From: Adhaeribacter arboris
GTDB taxonomy: Bacteria > Bacteroidota > Bacteroidia > Cytophagales > Hymenobacteraceae
Assembly: GCF_003023845.1 (NCBI RefSeq)
Contig: NZ_PYFT01000001.1
Location: 6,820,001-6,884,000 of the forward strand
Length of the DNA stretch: 64,000 bases
Direction: 5' to 3'
In this document: one piece after another, positions 15,455-36,947 of the stretch
Layout: every line of letters starts with the position of its first letter
How positions within the stretch are numbered: the stretch's first letter is position 1
Notes under the pieces: generated by a model
Told to the model about the DNA's origin: nothing
The model's input: only the letters and a program-made list of their open reading frames with translations
The model's database searches: none
Program-made: the position numbers and the translations under genes

Positions 15455-17074
15455 ATGGCCAAACAGAATACCGCTACTACTACCAAACCCAAAGCCGACA
15501 TAGATTTTGAAAATGAGTTGTGGAACGCCGCCAACGAGCTGCGCGGGGCCGTAGCCGAAAACCAGTATAAAGATTACGTCCTGTCCCTGCTGTTCGGGAA
15601 GCATTTATCCGAACGCTACGAAATCCGGAAAACAGAAATACAAATCTCCTTTCAGGACCCCGAAAGCGACTATTACAACATAGACGCCCAAGAACAAAGC
15701 TACGTGCTGGACGATGAACTGGAATACCAGGTAAAAAATGTGTACCGGTTGCCCTACGAAGCTACCTGGACCTACCTGCGCGAAAACGCCGAACAGGACG
15801 ATATAAAAGTAAAGGTAGATAAAGCCTTTGTCACCATCAACGACATCCTGAGCGCCCGTAACCCCGATTTTGCCGGCGTGCTGGAACCTATTTTTGTCAA
15901 AAGCCAGTTAACGCCTACCCAGGTGGCAGGCCTGATTAATTTGTTTTCGCAGGATAAGTTCTCAGAGGTAAACAACCCCGAAAGCGATATTTACGGCCGG
16001 GTGTACGAATATTACATTGGCAAATTTGCCATGGCCGAAGGCTCCGGTGCCGGGCAGTTTTTTACGCCGGGCTCGGTGGTGCGCCTGCTCGTTGAAATGA
16101 TTGAACCCCTGCGCGGCCGCATCCTGGATTTGGCTTGCGGCAGCGGCGGTATGTTTGTACAAAGCTTAAAATTCGGGCTGGCTCACGGCGGTAATAAAAA
16201 CGATATTTCTATTTACGGCCAGGAACGCTACGAAGGCACCCTGCGCCTCTGCAAAATGAACTTGCTTTTGCGCAACCTCTCCTTTGAGGTAAAGCTCGGC
16301 GACTCGCTCTTGAACGACAGGTTCCCCGACCTGAAGGCCGATTACGCCCTCATGAACCCGCCGTTTAATATTTCTAACTGGCACCCCGAACTGCTGCCCG
16401 AAAACGACCCGCGTTTGTTTGGAGCCAAAGAACTGTTTACCACCCCCGGCAATGCCAACTACATGTGGTTCCAGACCATCTGGCACCATTTAAGCCCACG
16501 CGGTACAGGTGGTGTGGTAATGGCCAACGGTGCCATGACCTCCGGTAGTGCCGGCGAAAAAAACGTGCGCGAATACATGCTCCGCCACCACATGGTAGAT
16601 TGCATTGTGCAAATGCCCGATAAATTATTCCTGACCACCGGCATACCCGCCTGCCTGTTTATATTAAGCAAAAACCGCGACGGCCGCGACGGCGAACACC
16701 GCCAACGCCAGCAGGAAGTATTGTTTATAGATGCCCGCAAACTGGGCCAGATGGCCAGCCGCCGCCTGCGCGTCTTCCACGACGAAGATATTTCCAAAGT
16801 AGCCGATACCTACCACCAGTGGCGCAACCGGGACGGCAACTATACAGATATAGATGGCTTCTGCAAAGCCGCTACCCTCCCGGAAATAGAAGCCAATAAT
16901 TTTGTGCTTTCGCCAGGCCGTTACGTGGGTTCCGAAGCCGAAGAAACCGATGGCGTTCCTTTTGAAGAAAAGATGCAGTTGTTAACAGCGGAGTTAATAG
17001 CTCAATTTGAGGAAGGCGCAGCTTTGGAGAAGATGATACGAAAAAATCTGCAAGAGATTGGGTTTGGGGCTTAA
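15455..17074 (+). CDS. hsdM: Type I restriction-modification DNA methyltransferase subunit
   Basis: 539 residues. An N-terminal helical HsdM_N domain (ENELWNAANELRGAVAENQY, VLSLLFGKHLSERYE) is followed by the N6-adenine methyltransferase domain. GAGQFFTPGSVVRLLVEM and the AdoMet-binding DLACGSGGMF (D225-F234) precede the catalytic NPPF (N301-F304). The C-terminal YVGSEAEETDGVPFEEKM is typical of HsdM. It methylates adenine in the site specified by HsdS and forms the M2S1 core with it. Codons are GC-rich like hsdR and unlike the two genes that follow. Only 26 bases separate it from the GHKL gene. Confidence 0.95.
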   Translation: MAKQNTATTTKPKADIDFENELWNAANELRGAVAENQYKDYVLSLLFGKHLSERYEIRKTEIQISFQDPESDYYNIDAQEQSYVLDDELEYQVKNVYRLPYEATWTYLRENAEQDDIKVKVDKAFVTINDILSARNPDFAGVLEPIFVKSQLTPTQVAGLINLFSQDKFSEVNNPESDIYGRVYEYYIGKFAMAEGSGAGQFFTPGSVVRLLVEMIEPLRGRILDLACGSGGMFVQSLKFGLAHGGNKNDISIYGQERYEGTLRLCKMNLLLRNLSFEVKLGDSLLNDRFPDLKADYALMNPPFNISNWHPELLPENDPRLFGAKELFTTPGNANYMWFQTIWHHLSPRGTGGVVMANGAMTSGSAGEKNVREYMLRHHMVDCIVQMPDKLFLTTGIPACLFILSKNRDGRDGEHRQRQQEVLFIDARKLGQMASRRLRVFHDEDISKVADTYHQWRNRDGNYTDIDGFCKAATLPEIEANNFVLSPGRYVGSEAEETDGVPFEEKMQLLTAELIAQFEEGAALEKMIRKNLQEIGFGA

Positions 17075-17100
17075 TACAGAATAGAGTAAACATTTAGATT

Positions 17101-19161
17101 ATGTCAAAGATGAATGCAGATGTTGTTGGCAAGGTCAATAACACAAAATTGAGTGAGAAGAATGGGATTATGGCCTTGTTTGAGGCAATAAACAATTCCT
17201 TGCAAAGTATTGAAGATGCTGGAAGGGCTGATGGGGAGGTTTTAGTTGAACTACAAAGAGCTAAAGACTTATATGATGATGGAAAAGGAACATATTTACC
17301 TTTTCAAAATTTTTCAATAACGGATAATGGTATAGGATTTAATGAGGAAAATTATAATTCTTTTCTTAATGCTGATTCTACTTATAAAATTAACCGAGGA
17401 GGTAAAGGTGTTGGCAGATTCACTTGGCTTAAAGTTTTTCAATATGCAGAGGTTGATAGTATATTTAAAACAAAAGAATCAATTGTTCGAAGGCAATTTA
17501 CTTTTTTAAACAATAAAGAAGCAATTGCTGATGAAAAGTTCTCTGCTGCTCCAAATAGTGAGCTAAGGACAATTATTCGATTGAAAAACGTTAGGCCAGA
17601 GTATGCTAGAAAATTACCAAGAACATTAGAAGCTATATGTGATGAAATAATTGAACATCTTGTAATAAAGCTAATCTCTCCTCATTGCCCAAAAATTATT
17701 GTAAGAGACACAAGGGCGGGCGAAACTTATGAGATTAATTTAAATAATAGGTTCAATCATGATTTTTTGCTTGACAAGGATGCAGATTCATTTACGATAA
17801 ATAAAGTTGATTTCACTATTGCTTTGCTGAAAGTAAAAAATGATGAAAACAATTTTAATCATTCAATTTTATTGAGTTCTGATGAGAGAGTTGTTACTTC
17901 AACTAATTTAAATCAATTTATTCCCAATCTTAACTCTTCTTTAATAGAAATAGAAAACGGTCAAAGCTTTGTAATTAAAGCTCTTGTATCAAGTAGCTAT
18001 CTGGATAATTCATCGAACCCTGAAAGAACAAAATTTGGATTACCGCAAACTAAAAAGTCAATAGATTCAATCCATGAAATAAGTATAGAAGATATTGAAA
18101 CAGCCGCAGCGGAAAAGGTTGAGGAACACTTTGATAGCTATTTAGCTCTTTTAAGAGAAAAGAAAAAAAACACAATGCTTACGAGTATTCAAGAATTTTT
18201 CCCGCACTTTGCTCCTTTGTTGCAATACGAGAAAATAATTGATAAAATTTCGCCTAGCGTTGTTTCAGATAAAAACAAGTTAAATCTGGCTCTTTCAAAG
18301 GCCAAGTATGATATTTTACTCGATGCAAAAAAAGATGTTTTGTCTATTGAACGGACAATGGACTTAATTTCTAAAGAGAATGCAAGTGAAGAAACTATAA
18401 ATTTATACAAGGAAAATTTTGAGAAAGTTGTAAACACATTATCGGATATAACGAAGTCGGAACTATCAGAATACGTTGTACATAGAAGAATCCTTATTGA
18501 TATATTTGGTAAACTACTTTCAAAAAAAGACGATGGTACATATCATTGGGAAGAGGAAATTCATAATTTGATTTTCCCCAAAGGCCACACAAATGAGGAC
18601 CTATTAGGAGCGCAGAACCTCTGGCTTGTTGATGAAAGACTTTCGTATCACAGATTTGTTGCATCGGACTTACCTTTCGAAAATAAAAAAGACTCTGGAA
18701 AACCTGATATATTAATTGGAAAATCAAATCAAGACTTTAATATACCACTTGCATATTCTGAAAAAAATCGACAGTCTGCTTACGATTCAATGGTAATTAT
18801 TGAATTCAAGCGGCCAATGCGAAAAGGTTATGCTCAAGATAAAGACCCAATTGACCAAGTAAAGAATTATATAAGAACAATTCGTAATGGGACAGCTGAA
18901 GACCCAAACGGGAGGCCTATAGAAGTTTCGGCGAATTGCAGGTTCTTTGCCTATCTTATTTGTGATTTACCACCAAAATTAAAGAGTGATATAATTGAAA
19001 TGCACGAATTTACGCCAATGATGGAAGGTGAAGGTTTGTTTGCTTCTCTGAAAAATCTTAACACTTATATGGAAGTTATATCATATAATAAAATCTTAAG
19101 TGATTCAAAGCAAAGAAATCGAGTATTATTTGAAAAACTTGGAATAGATTATAATGACTAA
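17101..19161 (+). CDS. GHKL (Hsp90/MORC-type) ATPase with C-terminal PD-(D/E)XK-like nuclease domain
   Basis: 686 residues. GHKL ATP-binding motifs are clear: FEAINNSLQS (Glu28, Asn31), DNGIGF (75-80) and GGKGVGRF (100-107), as in MORC and Hsp90 ATPases. A mid-region of long helices (about 340-490) is coiled-coil-like. The C-terminal part shows NLWLVDERLSYH, then KPDILIG (D536), IEFKRP (E568, K570) and DQVKNYI (Q586), the spacing of a PD-(D/E)XK nuclease core. Its ATG is 26 bases past hsdM and its last 8 bases overlap hsdS, so it is part of the hsd operon. Base composition is clearly AT-richer than hsdM and hsdR, pointing to separate acquisition. GHKL ATPases linked to restriction-modification loci are described (prokaryotic MORC relatives), but I know no characterised member of this arrangement. 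Role in defence is inferred. Confidence 0.85.
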   Translation: MSKMNADVVGKVNNTKLSEKNGIMALFEAINNSLQSIEDAGRADGEVLVELQRAKDLYDDGKGTYLPFQNFSITDNGIGFNEENYNSFLNADSTYKINRGGKGVGRFTWLKVFQYAEVDSIFKTKESIVRRQFTFLNNKEAIADEKFSAAPNSELRTIIRLKNVRPEYARKLPRTLEAICDEIIEHLVIKLISPHCPKIIVRDTRAGETYEINLNNRFNHDFLLDKDADSFTINKVDFTIALLKVKNDENNFNHSILLSSDERVVTSTNLNQFIPNLNSSLIEIENGQSFVIKALVSSSYLDNSSNPERTKFGLPQTKKSIDSIHEISIEDIETAAAEKVEEHFDSYLALLREKKKNTMLTSIQEFFPHFAPLLQYEKIIDKISPSVVSDKNKLNLALSKAKYDILLDAKKDVLSIERTMDLISKENASEETINLYKENFEKVVNTLSDITKSELSEYVVHRRILIDIFGKLLSKKDDGTYHWEEEIHNLIFPKGHTNEDLLGAQNLWLVDERLSYHRFVASDLPFENKKDSGKPDILIGKSNQDFNIPLAYSEKNRQSAYDSMVIIEFKRPMRKGYAQDKDPIDQVKNYIRTIRNGTAEDPNGRPIEVSANCRFFAYLICDLPPKLKSDIIEMHEFTPMMEGEGLFASLKNLNTYMEVISYNKILSDSKQRNRVLFEKLGIDYND

Positions 19162-20365
19162 TTGGCAACCCTACACCTTCTCCGATTTTGTTGAAATAAA
19201 CCCAACCATCTCTCTTAAAGGAAAAGGCACATTCTCTTTTATTGAAATGAAGGATTTATACGATGGGCAGAGATATGTTTATCCTGCGCAAGAAAGGACT
19301 ATTACGGGTGGAGCTCGATTTGGAGAAGGTGATACACTTTTTGCTCGCATAACACCCTGTTTAGAAAATGGAAAAATTTGCCAAGCTAAAGGATTAAAAA
19401 ATGGTGTAGGTTTTGGCTCTACTGAATTTCTTGTTTTTCGTGAAAGGGAAAATGTATCAGATACTAATTTTATTTATTATTTATCTAGATGGGAAGAAGT
19501 ACGCCGATATGCCGAATTACATTTAGTTGGCACATCCGGAAGGCAACGTGTTCCTAAAGATATTTTTGATAAGCTTGAATTAACCTTACCAGACTTAGAA
19601 ACACAAAAAAAAATAGCCGAAATATTATCTGCCCTAGATTATAAAATAGAACTCAACCGCCGGATGAACCAAACACTGGAACAAATGGCACAAACACTTT
19701 TTCAGCAATATTTTGTAAATAATATTGATAATTTATCTGATGGATGGAGATTTGGTAAAATTGGCGAAATTCTAGAAGTAAAAGGAGGAACAACTCCCAG
19801 CACCAAACAAAGAGAATTTTGGGATGGAGAATTTCATTGGACTTCTCCAAAAGATTTATCTGGGTTAAGGTTTCCGGTACTTTTAGATACAGAGAAAAAA
19901 CTAACACCGCAAGGATTAAAAAAAGTAAGTTCTGGGCTTCTTCCAATAGGAACCTTACTTTTATCATCAAGAGCGCCAATTGGATATTTAGCAATAACTC
20001 AAATTGCCGTTGCAATCAATCAGGGTTATATTGCCATTCTTTGTAATAAAGGATATTCTAATTTATTCATGTTAAATTGGTTAAAAGAAAACATGAATAT
20101 AATAATTCAAAATGCTAACGGCTCAACCTTTTTGGAGATAAGTAAATCAGTTTTTAAAAATATTGATTTAAAAATTCCACCCGTTGAGCTTGTGAATAAG
20201 TTTGATAATTTGGTTAGGCCTTTGTTCGAAAAAATAGTTTTAAACGAAAAAGAAAATATAAAATTAACAGAAATAAGAGACTCCCTTCTCCCCAAACTCA
20301 TGTCCGGGGAAATAGATGTAATGCAAACCAAAGCCGAAGAACTGTATGAGCCGGTACCTAGCTGA
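19154..20365 (+). CDS. hsdS: Type I restriction-modification specificity subunit
   Basis: 403 residues with two target-recognition domains, each followed by a helical spacer. TRD1 covers about 1-150, ending LPDLETQKKIAEILSALDYKI with a helix LNRRMNQTLEQMAQTLF. TRD2 begins at about 190 (GWRFGKIGEILEVKGGTTPS) and ends with LVRPLFEKIVLNEKENIKL and LLPKLMSGEIDV. It decides which bipartite sequence is methylated or cut. The start overlaps the GHKL gene by 8 bases and the end overlaps hsdR by 20 bases. Most of the gene is AT-rich; the last ~30 codons return to the GC-richer style of hsdR, consistent with recombination at the conserved 3' end. Confidence 0.95.
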   Translation: MTNWQPYTFSDFVEINPTISLKGKGTFSFIEMKDLYDGQRYVYPAQERTITGGARFGEGDTLFARITPCLENGKICQAKGLKNGVGFGSTEFLVFRERENVSDTNFIYYLSRWEEVRRYAELHLVGTSGRQRVPKDIFDKLELTLPDLETQKKIAEILSALDYKIELNRRMNQTLEQMAQTLFQQYFVNNIDNLSDGWRFGKIGEILEVKGGTTPSTKQREFWDGEFHWTSPKDLSGLRFPVLLDTEKKLTPQGLKKVSSGLLPIGTLLLSSRAPIGYLAITQIAVAINQGYIAILCNKGYSNLFMLNWLKENMNIIIQNANGSTFLEISKSVFKNIDLKIPPVELVNKFDNLVRPLFEKIVLNEKENIKLTEIRDSLLPKLMSGEIDVMQTKAEELYEPVPS

Positions 20366-23300
20366 AAGCGATATTGAAACCGCAGCCATCGATTGGCTTA
20401 AAGAAAGCAAACAGTACCAATACCAGTACGGGCCGGATATTCCGCGGCCACTAAATAAAGCCGTGCTGGAAGATAAGTTCGGGCTATATTTAGCGCAACG
20501 CTACCGCCACGTGCCGGCCAAAGTGCTGGAAGAAGTAAAGCAGGAATTTTTGTTTAACCCCGGCGCCGATATTTACAGCCAAAACCACGCGTTTCATTTA
20601 AAGCTCAGCAAAGGCCTTAGCAAAACCTGGAAAAACGAAAAAGGCCAGCCCCAGTTCGAGCATTTCTACGCCCTTAACTACGAAGACGTCGCGCAAAACA
20701 GCTTCTTGGTCGTAAACCAGTTTACAGTACAAGGCAAAAATACCCGCCGCCCCGATTTAATCATTTTCATCAACGGCCTGCCCCTGGTGCTGTTCGAGTT
20801 TAAAAACCCTTTCGACCAGGACACCACCGTAGAAGCCGCTTTTAACCAGGTGCAGCATTACATCCAGGATATTCCGCGGGTATTCGAAACCAATGCCCTC
20901 ACCATTATCAGCGATGGCTTTACCACGCTGCACGGCATGTTCAGCAGCGGCCTGGAGTGGTTTGCCGCCTGGAAAAGCACCAATGGCCGCGAAGTAGTAA
21001 CCGACGATTTTGCCCTCGAAACCCTGATAAAAGGTTTACTGGTACCAGAGCGTTTGCTGGCCTACATCCGGTTTTATATTTTTCACGAACTGGATAAAGG
21101 CCAGCTCATAAAAAAAGGCGCCAAATACCATCAGTTTTTCGGCATCCAGTACGCCCTCGCCGAAACCAAGAAATCCATCCGTCCGCTCGGCGATGGCCGC
21201 ATTGGCGTAATCTGGCATACCACCCGTTCGGGCAAAAGCATTACCATGGCTATTTATGCCGGTATTCTGCGCCAGCTACCCGAACTTAAAAACCCCACCA
21301 TTGTGGTGCAGGTAGACCGCTTCGATTTAAACAAGCAGCTCTACGAAGATTTTGTAGGCGCCAAAGATTTGGTCGGCGATGTAGCCCTGGCCCAAACCAC
21401 CGACGATTTACGCCAATTGCTTAGCGGCGAAGGTGGCGGCGTGGTGTTCAGTACCATCGAGAAGTTCCGGCTAAAAGATACCCTCGATGGTCTGCGGGAA
21501 GCCGAACACCCCATTCTGAGCCAGCGCGAAAATATTATCGTCATTGCCGATGAGTGCCACCGCACCCAGTACGGCTTAATAACCGGCTTTGCCAACAACC
21601 TGCGCAAAGCTTTGCCCCAGGCCTCGTTTATTGGTTTCACCGGCACCCCCGTCGATAGCAAAGACGCCGACACGGTAGCCGTTTTCGGGGAAATTATTCA
21701 TACCTACGACATTAAACAAGCCACCGCCGATAAAGCTGTAGTGCCCATTTACTACGAGCCGCGCCTGGCTAAACTTCATCTGGGTAACGAGCAGATAGAA
21801 GAAGAAGCCGAAGAAATAACCACCGGCCTGGAAGAAAGCGATAAAAACAAAATAATGTGGGCGGCCATGGAAGATGCCGCCGGGGCCAAAGAACGCGTAG
21901 AAGCCATTGCCCGCGATATTCTAAGCCACTACCTGAACCGCACCGCCAACCTGCCCGGCAAAGCCATGGTGGTGTGCATGAGCCGCCGCAATTGCGTGAA
22001 AATGTACGATGCCCTCACGGCCCTGCCCAACTGCCCCGAAGTAGCCGTGATTATGACCACCAACATTGCCAAAGACCCGAAGGAGTGGAACCCACACGTG
22101 CGCACCAAGGAGGCCATGGAAGAAGTAAAAACCCGCTTCAAAAACCCCGATGATAATTTGCAAATTGTTATTGTGCGGGATATGTGGCTCACCGGCTTCG
22201 ATAACCCCGCCCTGCACACGCTGTACGTCGATAAAGTCATGAGCGGCCACAACCTCATCCAGGCCGTAAACCGCGTCGCCACCGTTTTCCGCGATAAACC
22301 CAGCGGCCTGATAGTAGACTACATCGGCATCGGCGACAAACTCCGCGACGCTACCAAAAAATACACCGGTGGTGGTGGACAAGGGGCTGTTACCATTGAT
22401 TTGGAAGAAGCCTTTGAACTGACCAAAGAAGTTATCCAGGACTTACAAAATCAATTACCAGAATATTTTTACCAAGCATTAGAAAAGTCCCCCTTCGGAG
22501 GGGGTAGGGGGAGGACAAATACTCCCGAAGAAATTACTACTTTGTCTACGGCAGCAGAACCGTTGGCCCATTATAATTCTTCCTTAGATTCTGGTAATAC
22601 AGGTGCTAAAGGAGAAAATCCTCCACCAACCCCCTCCAAAGGGGGACGACCGACAGCACCAGCCTTTGCGGTTTTGAACGGCGAATCAATTTTGGAGCGG
22701 TTTGGGTGGAGTTATTATAGCTGGCCGTATTTAAAAGAAGGGGATAAATTTAAGTTAGTGATGCGCGCGGTTAATCTGCTGGTAGCCGATGAGGAAGTTT
22801 GTAAGGCGTTTTTGGTAAACGAGAAAAAGTTAAGCGAGCTGGTTCCAATTGTGAAAAATCATGCGGCCATTAGCGATATAGCTGTAGATATTCTGTTCTT
22901 TCAGCACGTAGGGGCGGCGGTTCGTAAAATTAAATACCCGCCAACCAACATCCGCAAAAAAGAAAGCCAGATAAAAGAACTTATTCACCGCAGCATCGAA
23001 AGCGAAGAAGTAATAGATGTTTTCCAGATGGCCGGCATCGACCGTTTTGATATTTCCATTATCAACGACGATTTCCTGGCTACCGCCAAAGAAGAGAAAA
23101 GCGGCAATGAACTAAAACTAGAACTGCTCCGGCAAATTTTAAACGACGAAATAAAAGTTCGATCGAGCAAGAACCTGGTTAAATATCGCAAGCTGAAAGA
23201 CGAATTGGAGCGGATAATCCGGGATTACCACGACCACTTTTTTGATAGTTTAATTGCCCTGCAAAAAGTACGCGAGGTAGCCAAAGAAATGCAGGAAGAA

Positions 23301-23612
23301 GATCAACGCCGGAGACAATTAGGCTTAACCGAAGATGAAGAAGCTTTTTACGAAATTCTGGCCAAGCACCCCAACGCTGTTCAGGATTTTGATTTGATTA
23401 AAGAAGTGGTGAAAGAGGTAACCAAAGTTATCCAGAAAAACACCCAACAGCCGGATTGGTACAAAAAAACCGATACCAAAGCTCAGATCCAATTATCGGT
23501 AAAAAGCATCCTCCGCCGCAAAGGCATAACCGATGAACTCCAGGAAATTCTGGCTGAGATTATGGAGCAGGCGGAGTCGCGGTATAAAGAGTGGCGTTTT
23601 GAGGTGGCTTAA
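20346..23612 (+). CDS. hsdR: Type I restriction endonuclease subunit, with repeat insertion and altered helicase motifs
   Basis: 1088 residues. N-terminal nuclease: RPDLIIFINGLP (D137) with LFEFKNP (E151, K153). SF2 translocase: motif I reads HTTRSGKS (291-298) where most relatives have HTQGSGKS, motif II is DECH (402-405), and motif III is FTGTP. Motif VI reads QAVNRVATVF (639-648) where relatives usually have QAIARVNRVF, so the second Arg is Thr. Residues about 714-768 are a Gly/Pro-rich insert encoded by inverted repeats (22487-22647). The C-terminal helical region (IKELIHRSIESEEVIDVFQ) binds the methylase core. The reading frame is intact, but activity may be altered; the protein cuts or translocates DNA only together with HsdM and HsdS. 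Confidence 0.93.
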   Translation: MSRYLAESDIETAAIDWLKESKQYQYQYGPDIPRPLNKAVLEDKFGLYLAQRYRHVPAKVLEEVKQEFLFNPGADIYSQNHAFHLKLSKGLSKTWKNEKGQPQFEHFYALNYEDVAQNSFLVVNQFTVQGKNTRRPDLIIFINGLPLVLFEFKNPFDQDTTVEAAFNQVQHYIQDIPRVFETNALTIISDGFTTLHGMFSSGLEWFAAWKSTNGREVVTDDFALETLIKGLLVPERLLAYIRFYIFHELDKGQLIKKGAKYHQFFGIQYALAETKKSIRPLGDGRIGVIWHTTRSGKSITMAIYAGILRQLPELKNPTIVVQVDRFDLNKQLYEDFVGAKDLVGDVALAQTTDDLRQLLSGEGGGVVFSTIEKFRLKDTLDGLREAEHPILSQRENIIVIADECHRTQYGLITGFANNLRKALPQASFIGFTGTPVDSKDADTVAVFGEIIHTYDIKQATADKAVVPIYYEPRLAKLHLGNEQIEEEAEEITTGLEESDKNKIMWAAMEDAAGAKERVEAIARDILSHYLNRTANLPGKAMVVCMSRRNCVKMYDALTALPNCPEVAVIMTTNIAKDPKEWNPHVRTKEAMEEVKTRFKNPDDNLQIVIVRDMWLTGFDNPALHTLYVDKVMSGHNLIQAVNRVATVFRDKPSGLIVDYIGIGDKLRDATKKYTGGGGQGAVTIDLEEAFELTKEVIQDLQNQLPEYFYQALEKSPFGGGRGRTNTPEEITTLSTAAEPLAHYNSSLDSGNTGAKGENPPPTPSKGGRPTAPAFAVLNGESILERFGWSYYSWPYLKEGDKFKLVMRAVNLLVADEEVCKAFLVNEKKLSELVPIVKNHAAISDIAVDILFFQHVGAAVRKIKYPPTNIRKKESQIKELIHRSIESEEVIDVFQMAGIDRFDISIINDDFLATAKEEKSGNELKLELLRQILNDEIKVRSSKNLVKYRKLKDELERIIRDYHDHFFDSLIALQKVREVAKEMQEEDQRRRQLGLTEDEEAFYEILAKHPNAVQDFDLIKEVVKEVTKVIQKNTQQPDWYKKTDTKAQIQLSVKSILRRKGITDELQEILAEIMEQAESRYKEWRFEVA
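22487..22647. repeat. Inverted palindromic repeat pair inserted in frame in hsdR
   Basis: GTCCCCCTTCGGAGGGGG at 22487 begins a 30-base unit (to 22516). Its near-identical reverse complement, containing CCCCCTCCAAAGGGGGAC, occupies 22618-22647. About 100 bases lie between. The translation is SPFGGGRGRTN ... NPPPTPSKGGRP, low-complexity and unlike normal HsdR sequence. A related unit lies at 15196-15229, so this is a dispersed element tolerated inside the gene. Exact insertion ends are uncertain. Confidence 0.75.
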
Positions 23613-34679: not shown

Positions 34680-36947
34680 ATGATGGAGTTACTACTTAAA
34701 GCTTCGTTTGCCCTAGTGGTAGTTTTCTTGTTTTACAAACTTTTGCTGCAGCAGGAAAGCTTTTTTACTATTAATCGCTTTTACTTGCTGGCCGGTTTAC
34801 TTTTGGCCTTTGTTCTGCCATTTGTTACGTTGCCCAAATTAATGAATCACCAGGGTTATTTAACTACCGTTTGGCAACCAGCTAATAATTACCCGAGCAA
34901 CAGCATTCATCCGAAGGCGCCAGTGAATGAAATAAATCTTTCTCCTGAACCGGCCCGGTCCTCCTCGGTTAGTACTTCTACGCCGGTACAAAACGAAGCT
35001 TCTACTCCTAAAAAGCTTTCTAATAGCGCTACTTTTAGCGGACTGTTTTGGTTGGGCGGGCTTTATTTATTCGGGGTAATGGTTTTTTCGATAAGTCTGC
35101 TTTTTCAGGTCGGCAGCCTTTTTTATAAAATTCTCCGGACCGAAGACAAAATATACGATGGGGAAGTGGTAATTGTGAATACCACGCACCGGCAAGCTCC
35201 CTGCTCCTTTTTTAAGTACATTTTTATTTATCCCGACGATTATGACTTTGAAACTTACGAGCAAATACTCGCGCACGAAAAAATTCACGTTCGGTTAAGG
35301 CACAGTGTTGATTTGCTGCTCGCCGAACTTGCGGTGATTGTACTTTGGTTTAACCCTATTATTTGGCTGTTGAAACGCGAAATAGAGAAAAATAACGAAT
35401 ACCAAACCGATGCCTTGCTCCTGGCGAAAGAACCGGTAAGCCCCGAACATTACCAATTAAATTTATTGCAGATTGCGGTTCCGAATAAACCTCTCTCTAT
35501 TACCACTAACTACAATCAATCCTTACTAAAACAAAGAATTATGATGATGAACGCAAAAAAGTCTACGCCGCACGCTTACTGGAAGTACAGTTTTCTGGTG
35601 CCATTGTTTTTCGGAACGATACTCATGATGAACGAGCCGGCTACCAGTCAGGAATTACCCATAAGCGACATTTTGCTGCCGATGAAACCCATTAGCCAAG
35701 CTAAACCAATAAAAGAAAACGTTTTTACTACCAAAGTTGCGGTTAATTTGGCGCGAAAGCCACCAAAGCCCAGCAAACCCAAAGGGAAGTCCCTGCCCAT
35801 CCAAAGCAACGACTCCGATATGTCGGCGGGTTATTGGTACAGCCACCAGGAGGGCAATGAATATTGCCTGGAATTAAAAGGTAGCCGGAATAATACCACC
35901 TGGAACATGTCGCAGTGCTTTGATAAAAAGCTTTTTCAAAAAACCGGTAATGAGGTGTACAAAATGAACAACGAAGTAGGTACGCTGCAATTAACCGGTA
36001 ACCTGGAAGCCGAAGTTGGCCAGGGAAAATATACCTTTACCGAGAAACCTGCCTTTAAACAATATTTAGCCTCTAACAATTTAGTAGCCAAAGATAAAAA
36101 CCTGCTATTTCATTTATTCTTTGCCGGCGTAAACCGGGCATACGTTGATTTCTTAAAGAAGAACTACGCCGAGGTAACCGGCGACCGTTTGCTGGAAGTA
36201 GCTATTCACGACGTCTCCCTAGCCGATCACCAAAGTTATATTACTATGTTCCAGGAACATAGCCATAAGAAACCAAGCTTGCAAGAAGTATTAGAAGCTA
36301 AAATCCACGGCATTGATAAAGAATACGTTCAGGAATTAGGGAAAATGGGCTTTAAAGATCTTAGCATGAAGAAAATGATAGAAGCTAAAATTCATGATGT
36401 AGATCCGGCCTACGTAGCGAATTTAAAAAAAGCCGGCTTCCCCAATTTAACTATGGATAAAATTATCCAAGCCAACATTCATGATATTAATCCAGAGTCG
36501 GTTAAAGAGTTGCGCGCCCTCGGTTTCGGGGATCTTAGCCTGGATAAAATGATAGAATTAAATATTCACAACGTTAACGCGGGCTATATTCAGGAACTGC
36601 AATCCGCCGGTCTTAAGAATCTTGCCTTAGAACAAGTTCTCGAAGCCCGGATTCATGATTTAAATCCGGCGTCGATAAAAGCAATCCGGGATTTAGGTTT
36701 TAAAGATTTAGATTTTAGCGAACTAGTAAAGGCTCAGATTCATGACGTGGATGCTGCTTATATCGCTGAATTAAAAGAAGCCGGGTTCCCGAATCTGAGT
36801 ATGGATAAAGTAGTAGAAGCTAAAATTCATGACGTGGATGGTACCTTCATTAAACAAGCCCGCCAAAAGGGTTATAACTTTAACAAACTCGATAAATATA
36901 TTGCTCTCAAGATTCATAACTCGGCCATTGAAGCTTTAAAAGAGTAA
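34680..36947 (+). CDS. BlaR1-type M56 membrane peptidase with C-terminal 29-residue repeats
   Basis: 755 residues. The N-terminal part has membrane spans (about 5-25, 35-55, 118-145) and a cytoplasmic zinc protease site HEKIH (199-203) followed by ELAVIVLWFNPIIWLLKREI and the conserved EYQTDA. A further span lies near 300-320 (YSFLVPLFFGTILMMN). Residues about 330-500 are a Pro-rich linker and small beta domain. From about 505 to the end there are seven to eight tandem units of 29 residues with the pattern IEAKIHDVDPAYVANLKKAG. These replace the penicillin-binding sensor domain of classical BlaR1, so the signal is not obviously a beta-lactam. Operon with the repressor; terminator at 36978-37019. 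Confidence 0.88.
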   Translation: MMELLLKASFALVVVFLFYKLLLQQESFFTINRFYLLAGLLLAFVLPFVTLPKLMNHQGYLTTVWQPANNYPSNSIHPKAPVNEINLSPEPARSSSVSTSTPVQNEASTPKKLSNSATFSGLFWLGGLYLFGVMVFSISLLFQVGSLFYKILRTEDKIYDGEVVIVNTTHRQAPCSFFKYIFIYPDDYDFETYEQILAHEKIHVRLRHSVDLLLAELAVIVLWFNPIIWLLKREIEKNNEYQTDALLLAKEPVSPEHYQLNLLQIAVPNKPLSITTNYNQSLLKQRIMMMNAKKSTPHAYWKYSFLVPLFFGTILMMNEPATSQELPISDILLPMKPISQAKPIKENVFTTKVAVNLARKPPKPSKPKGKSLPIQSNDSDMSAGYWYSHQEGNEYCLELKGSRNNTTWNMSQCFDKKLFQKTGNEVYKMNNEVGTLQLTGNLEAEVGQGKYTFTEKPAFKQYLASNNLVAKDKNLLFHLFFAGVNRAYVDFLKKNYAEVTGDRLLEVAIHDVSLADHQSYITMFQEHSHKKPSLQEVLEAKIHGIDKEYVQELGKMGFKDLSMKKMIEAKIHDVDPAYVANLKKAGFPNLTMDKIIQANIHDINPESVKELRALGFGDLSLDKMIELNIHNVNAGYIQELQSAGLKNLALEQVLEARIHDLNPASIKAIRDLGFKDLDFSELVKAQIHDVDAAYIAELKEAGFPNLSMDKVVEAKIHDVDGTFIKQARQKGYNFNKLDKYIALKIHNSAIEALKE

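Follow-up and report, generated by a model that had tools for sequence, protein, structure and literature searches.

A GHKL-Shedu (paraMORC3) ATPase-nuclease gene within a type I restriction-modification operon of Adhaeribacter arboris

The operon and its genes

We consider a type I restriction-modification (RM) operon of Adhaeribacter arboris that carries a fourth gene, called X here, among its hsd genes. All coordinates refer to the window, the whole stretch of 64,000 nucleotides that was analysed. The features of the locus are as follows.

15455..17074, + strand: hsdM, type I methyltransferase subunit, 539 aa (Pfam HsdM_N and N6_Mtase; motifs DLACGSG and NPPF)
17101..19161, + strand: X, GHKL-Shedu (paraMORC3/VcSduA-like) ATPase-nuclease, 686 aa (ORF, Pfam, alignment, models, hhalign)
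17107..18159, + strand: X residues 3-353, GHKL ATPase with S5/middle domain (aligns best with MORC2, MORC3 and Hsp90 at Z about 20; invariant E28, N32, D75, G79, G105 and R309)
18439..19158, + strand: X residues 447-686, PD-(D/E)XK nuclease domain with E484, D536, E568-x-K570 and Q586 (lone model of pLDDT 88; VIA-align; hhalign)
19154..20365, + strand: hsdS, specificity subunit, 403 aa (Pfam Methylase_S, two stretches)
20346..23612, + strand: hsdR, restriction subunit, 1088 aa (Pfam HSDR_N, SWI2_SNF2 and T1RH-like_C; nuclease and helicase motifs intact)
17101..20365, + strand: X-S block of low GC (0.32-0.34) between hsdM (0.515) and hsdR (0.49), from the GC of each gene

The genes follow one another on one strand in the order hsdM, X, hsdS, hsdR. 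In the list of open reading frames, hsdM and X are separated by a gap of 26 bp, X overlaps hsdS by 8 bases, and hsdS overlaps hsdR by 20 bases. These coordinates bear out the order and the two overlaps given in a first-pass annotation, and the common strand, the short gap and the overlaps place X inside the operon, as that annotation had held. The Pfam matches of HsdM, HsdS and HsdR are well over cut-off, the C-terminus of HsdR is HindI-like (T1RH-like_C), and a motif check finds PD...EFKN, RSGKS, DECHR and TGTP in HsdR. With hsdM, hsdS and hsdR adjacent and their catalytic motifs intact, the locus is a type I RM operon, and X, a non-hsd gene within it on the same strand, has the placement that defines a type I-embedded defence gene of the kind of TgvAB, PrrC and RloF. 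The 7.25-Mb genome contains one full-length copy of X.

Two side observations concern other genes in the window. HsdR has an in-frame insert of about 75-80 aa (residues ~708-787; window 22480-22660) that is missing from the nearest HsdRs; it is flanked by inverted G/C-rich repeats (CCCCCTTCGGAGGGGGTAGGGGGAGG ... CCTCCACCAACCCCCTCCAAAGGGGG) and looks like a small palindromic repeat element. The 15-mer GGGGGTAGGGGGAGG has 7 copies in the genome, and its reversed control has 0. Further along (34680-36947), a BlaR1/M56-like membrane protein has a C-terminal half in which, by eye, an IHDV-like unit recurs every 25 residues or so.

Domains, active sites and family of X

The protein X is an Hsp90/MORC-type GHKL and S5 ATPase fused to a PD-(D/E)XK nuclease. 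The first-pass annotation had read an ATPase of the GHKL class and a nuclease of this fold from the letters, and the models, VIA-align, hhalign and the invariant motifs uphold both. The full-length AlphaFold2 model, built from a 76-row alignment, has a mean pLDDT of 89 and displays a third part between ATPase and nuclease, namely the S5/middle domain and a long helical linker (about residues 200-470). The motifs of X are E28-AIN-N32, D75-NGIGF, GGKGVGRF, P535-D536, E568-F-K570 and Q586. The alignment has 34 invariant columns, and the residues that are the same in all 76 homologues include E28, N32, D75, G79, G105 and the basic R309 in the ATPase part, and E484, D536, E568, K570 and Q586 in the nuclease. 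Sequence libraries see little of this: the Pfam matches to HATPase_c and HATPase_c_3 are weak and below cut-off (E 0.004-0.005), there is no Pfam match to AAA_13, a feature of PrrC-type guards, the window X goes unrecognised by PADLOC, NCBIfam and PHROGs, and a sequence search of the PDB gives chance or histidine-kinase matches only.

Fold searches with the full-length model are dominated by the ATPase part and are uninformative on the nuclease. The C-terminal 240 residues were modelled separately (pLDDT 88), and the first four ranks in VIA-align all belong to the Shedu protein SduA (8ps4 with Z 10.1, 8ps5 with 9.7, 8ti9 with 9.5 and 8ti8 with 9.2), followed by other PD-(D/E)XK nucleases; a Z near 10 is moderate. 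Foldseek without re-alignment finds nothing significant for this domain, and a PDB search with its profile finds no match. When the nuclease profile is compared by hhalign with the collected SduA domains, the probability is 94.8% with an E of 5e-8 (for a single comparison), and the D, E-x-K and Q of the two line up, a profile result that supports the nuclease fold proposed for the C-terminal part. The Pfam family SduA_C (DUF4263) scores 14 bits against the domain alone (E 0.058), where the curated cut-off is 27. Among 60 members of the X family SduA_C is the commonest Pfam match, mostly sub-threshold, being found in 12 of them at E up to 1 with a best value of 1.9e-4.

The family had been missed in the first pass and is already described, as paraMORC3 and as Shedu type I-D. 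Iyer, Abhiman and Aravind (2008) defined paraMORC3 as a GHKL and S5 module with a C-terminal restriction-endonuclease-fold domain that carries E-D-ExK (PMC2292703). In X, a GHKL ATPase with intact nucleotide-binding motifs is followed by an S5 domain and then by such a C-terminal domain, in which E484, D536 and E568-x-K570 are invariant. Because motifs, fold and profile fit, X is a paraMORC3 protein as defined in that paper. Its nuclease is homologous to SduA by profile and fold (hhalign and VIA-align; Foldseek alone is not significant), and X has the fusion of a GHKL ATPase to a Shedu nuclease by which type I-D is defined (PMC12137116). Judged from its sequence and models, X belongs with paraMORC3 and shares the architecture of VcSduA; architecture and motifs make homology to VcSduA along the whole protein probable.

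Neighbourhoods of X and the slots of related operons

We collected homologues of X from Bacteroidota genomes, from plasmids and from a scan of 84,980 species genomes, in which 422 stretches encode relatives. The neighbourhoods of 86 loci (genome scan and plasmids) were surveyed with HsdM, HsdS and HsdR profiles built from the window genes. In 10 of the 86 (L020, L029, L034, L069, L071, L086, L088, L092, L095 and L096), X immediately follows hsdS and is read from the same strand; several of these hsdS-X junctions have ATGA-type overlaps, and L088 has the complete order M-S-X-R with every junction overlapping. Three further cases (L169, L231 and L232) come from context-blind genome draws, by our count 3 of about 36 full-length copies, and bring the total to 13 loci in several phyla. 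Among the 79 genome-scan loci, X is found directly behind hsdS 9 times, against 2.0 expected when X is placed randomly within its own locus, an expectation that controls for defence-gene clustering and ignores relatedness.

Most copies of X have neither an hsd gene nor another RM gene beside them, and this includes the nearest relatives, the closest being a stand-alone Hymenobacter copy of 40% identity. The proposal that X never occurs apart from type I RM is therefore rejected. On the tree, the hsdS-adjacent state requires at least 4 changes on well-supported branches, and hsd operons have captured X several times independently. The window X is sister to the stand-alone Hymenobacter copies (SH-aLRT 99) and apart from the main hsd-linked clades, and so it represents a separate capture. 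A survey of neighbourhoods had been proposed in the first pass with consistent placement between hsdM and hsdS in mind; recurrent placement in type I operons is what emerges, normally as S-X(-R), with M-X-S only in the window. Since no second case of M-X-S occurs among about 120 X loci examined, it is rejected as a conserved arrangement. Two seeming M-X arrangements, L043 and L230, are likewise rejected, the neighbour being of the Eco57I type and not hsdM: X comes right after an Eco57I-type restriction-methylase pair in L043 (3320-9990) and L230 (9186-16062), which are from unrelated Lachnospiraceae and Bacteroidota genomes.

Three of the loci are of interest in their own right. The Vibrio fluvialis plasmid pIDH5335-1 (L180, 4401-9013) has a type I operon of the order R-AAA-M-S-SduA-X, in which a classical SduA gene is followed by the GHKL-Shedu gene with a 4-base overlap, so that two Shedu-type nucleases stand in tandem. 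In L231 (7679-9784; S-X-R), a member of a divergent X subfamily has a nuclease that matches Pfam HSDR_N just over cut-off (E 1.6e-5), and thus the cargo nuclease resembles HsdR's own. The phage vB_RanS_PJN03 (L246, 2485-4509) has an X homologue with 26% identity over 99% that adjoins an integrase and is annotated as an amidase; it is probably a misnamed prophage-borne defence gene.

We turn to the operons related to that of the window, chosen by their most similar HsdR. Their hsd genes are recognisable while the intervening genes vary. The closest of them, L150, is broken; its M is 80% and its R up to 83% identical to those of the window, and its cargo is an nSTAND protein. The cargo of L151 is an AAA_14/DUF4143 protein with an ApeA-like protein, M and S are separated by a PrrC-like AAA_13 gene in L158 and by a YhcG nuclease gene in L178, and others carry OLD, Tmn, SIR2, GmrSD (HEC-05) or Gabija. 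As a side observation, nearly all type I operons examined in this order (L150-L179) have at least one extra gene between hsdM, hsdS and hsdR, and the extra genes comprise several known defence genes and many of no assigned family.

The GC content of the window operon shifts at both ends of the X-S block, from 0.515 in hsdM to 0.32 in X and 0.34 in hsdS, and back to 0.49 in hsdR. This suggests that the X-S block was exchanged between a resident M and R. The low GC of hsdS alone is rejected as proof of import, because in almost every operon examined hsdS has a lower GC than M and R; the difference is largest in the window.

Possible roles of X and comparison with known systems

We consider it likely that X is exchangeable defence cargo of the type I operon, a self-sufficient VcSduA-like nuclease that acts as an independent second layer. 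What is observed is the domain make-up, the conserved active sites, the operon position, the repeated capture and the variable cargo of related operons. An anti-phage activity of X is predicted from its invariant E28 and K570, which match the motifs of VcSduA. Following VcSduA and general GHKL biochemistry, X would form a dimer, and ATP binding may shut the GHKL/S5 clamp around the DNA of an invading phage or around a replication intermediate of that DNA. Closure of the clamp would then license the C-terminal PD-(D/E)XK domains to cut that DNA. Such a layer would be independent of HsdMSR and would cover phages that escape methylation-based restriction, and the operon would be shared for co-expression and joint transfer. 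TgvAB is a studied precedent for embedded defence that acts independently in this way (PMC11411939).

The main rival, in line with the first-pass suggestion of an effector that comes into play once restriction fails, is a guard of the PrrC type, in which HsdMS(R) holds X inactive and a phage that inhibits or evades the type I enzyme releases it for back-up cutting of phage or host DNA. PrrC is itself a proven guard encoded within a type I locus, the PrrC-like AAA_13 gene of L158 sits in the same slot of a related operon, and X and hsdS are coupled in translation by their overlaps, with X first here and hsdS first in many loci. However, most copies of X, the nearest included, are without adjacent hsd genes, in two loci X comes after Eco57I-type RM genes, VcSduA works alone (PMC12137116), and the slot is occupied by many unrelated effectors. 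Weakened by the many relatives of X that stand alone, this account is possible for the embedded copies but has a small chance of being right. We regard as unlikely the related proposal that X and hsdS form a coupled cassette of effector and specificity, in which X is tuned to or held by HsdMS and is set off once restriction has been blocked or circumvented. If true, the low-GC X and hsdS would swap as one block between a conserved hsdM and hsdR and exchange target specificity and effector in a single recombination step.

It is quite improbable that X arrived recently between hsdM and hsdS by chance, with a position of no functional meaning. The M-X-S order seen nowhere else in the sample, the low GC of the X-S block and the broken state of L150 would fit such an insertion, but X has an unbroken reading frame that keeps every invariant residue, it adjoins its neighbours tightly or with an overlap, and other hsd operons have captured X repeatedly. 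Least probable is a role within the type I enzyme itself, with X as an accessory motor or loader that works with HsdM/HsdS in restriction or modification: gene overlaps with co-transcription and the recurring S-X-R order with ATGA-type overlaps (e.g. L088) speak for it, but related type I operons have other genes in place of X, X has a complete nuclease active site of its own and is widespread without hsd genes, and the loader/clamp role floated in the first-pass annotation finds no support, because most homologues have no hsd neighbours and VcSduA protects without them (PMC12137116).

The locus connects the GHKL-Shedu (paraMORC3) nucleases, mostly known as stand-alone, with type I operons, which have captured them repeatedly and independently. 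In related operons a changing set of known defence effectors occupies the hsdM-hsdS and hsdS-hsdR slots, and therefore a gene of unknown kind found there is a good candidate for a new defence gene. Such operons are open to testing as two-layer systems; the coupled-cassette or guard reading would be the more interesting one if true. Both the X family and the embedding of defence genes in type I operons are already known. The literature searched describes neither the combination of GHKL-Shedu with a type I operon nor its recurrence, though Gu et al. 2025, the main Shedu classification, lies outside that search and may note it. Within the same literature the M-X-S-R order has no studied example, in agreement with the first pass.

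Among known systems, PrrC at the EcoprrI type I locus is like X an effector gene embedded in a type I operon, and its role as a guard there is proven (PMC12707154). It differs in being an anticodon nuclease with an AAA_13-type ATPase that is silenced by the type I enzyme, a coupling of which no counterpart is known for X. TgvAB, in a type I operon of V. cholerae VPI-2, is likewise a case of embedded defence genes, but it is a GmrSD-type two-protein system between hsdS and hsdR whose proteins are unrelated to X. It protects by itself against modified phages, independently of HsdR, and protection was stronger from the whole operon than from the embedded pair by itself (PMC11411939), which leaves room for some cooperation.

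The paraMORC3 proteins have the same GHKL, S5 and E-D-ExK nuclease make-up as X. They are widely distributed, common among proteobacteria and bacteroidetes, and move laterally, and the text of the paper describes them as a stand-alone subset without conserved neighbours, with hsdM, hsdS and type I embedding unmentioned (PMC2292703), whereas X lies inside such an operon. Shedu SduA (B. cereus 8ti8, E. coli 8ps4) shares with X the nuclease fold and the D, E-x-K, Q motif but has a different N-terminal part, without a GHKL ATPase.

The closest comparison is with VcSduA of the V. cholerae WASA lineage, which joins a GHKL ATPase at its N-terminus to a DUF4263 nuclease at its C-terminus (PMC12137116). 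VcSduA alone protects E. coli from Drexlerviridae, the activity is lost in E27A or K557A, and protection holds at every MOI, which fits direct restriction (PMC12137116). The authors (2025) assign VcSduA to Shedu type I-D and suggest that its nuclease is under the control of the GHKL part (PMC12137116). As judged from this description, X is alike in its GHKL ATPase, clamp-like middle domain and Shedu-type PD-(D/E)XK nuclease, while VcSduA is a separate gene on VSP-II, outside a type I operon. The essential E27 and K557 fall in the motifs of E28 and K570 of X, both invariant, and the nearest Vibrio-family relatives compared (Salinivibrio and V. fluvialis plasmids) give alignments that span the whole of X.
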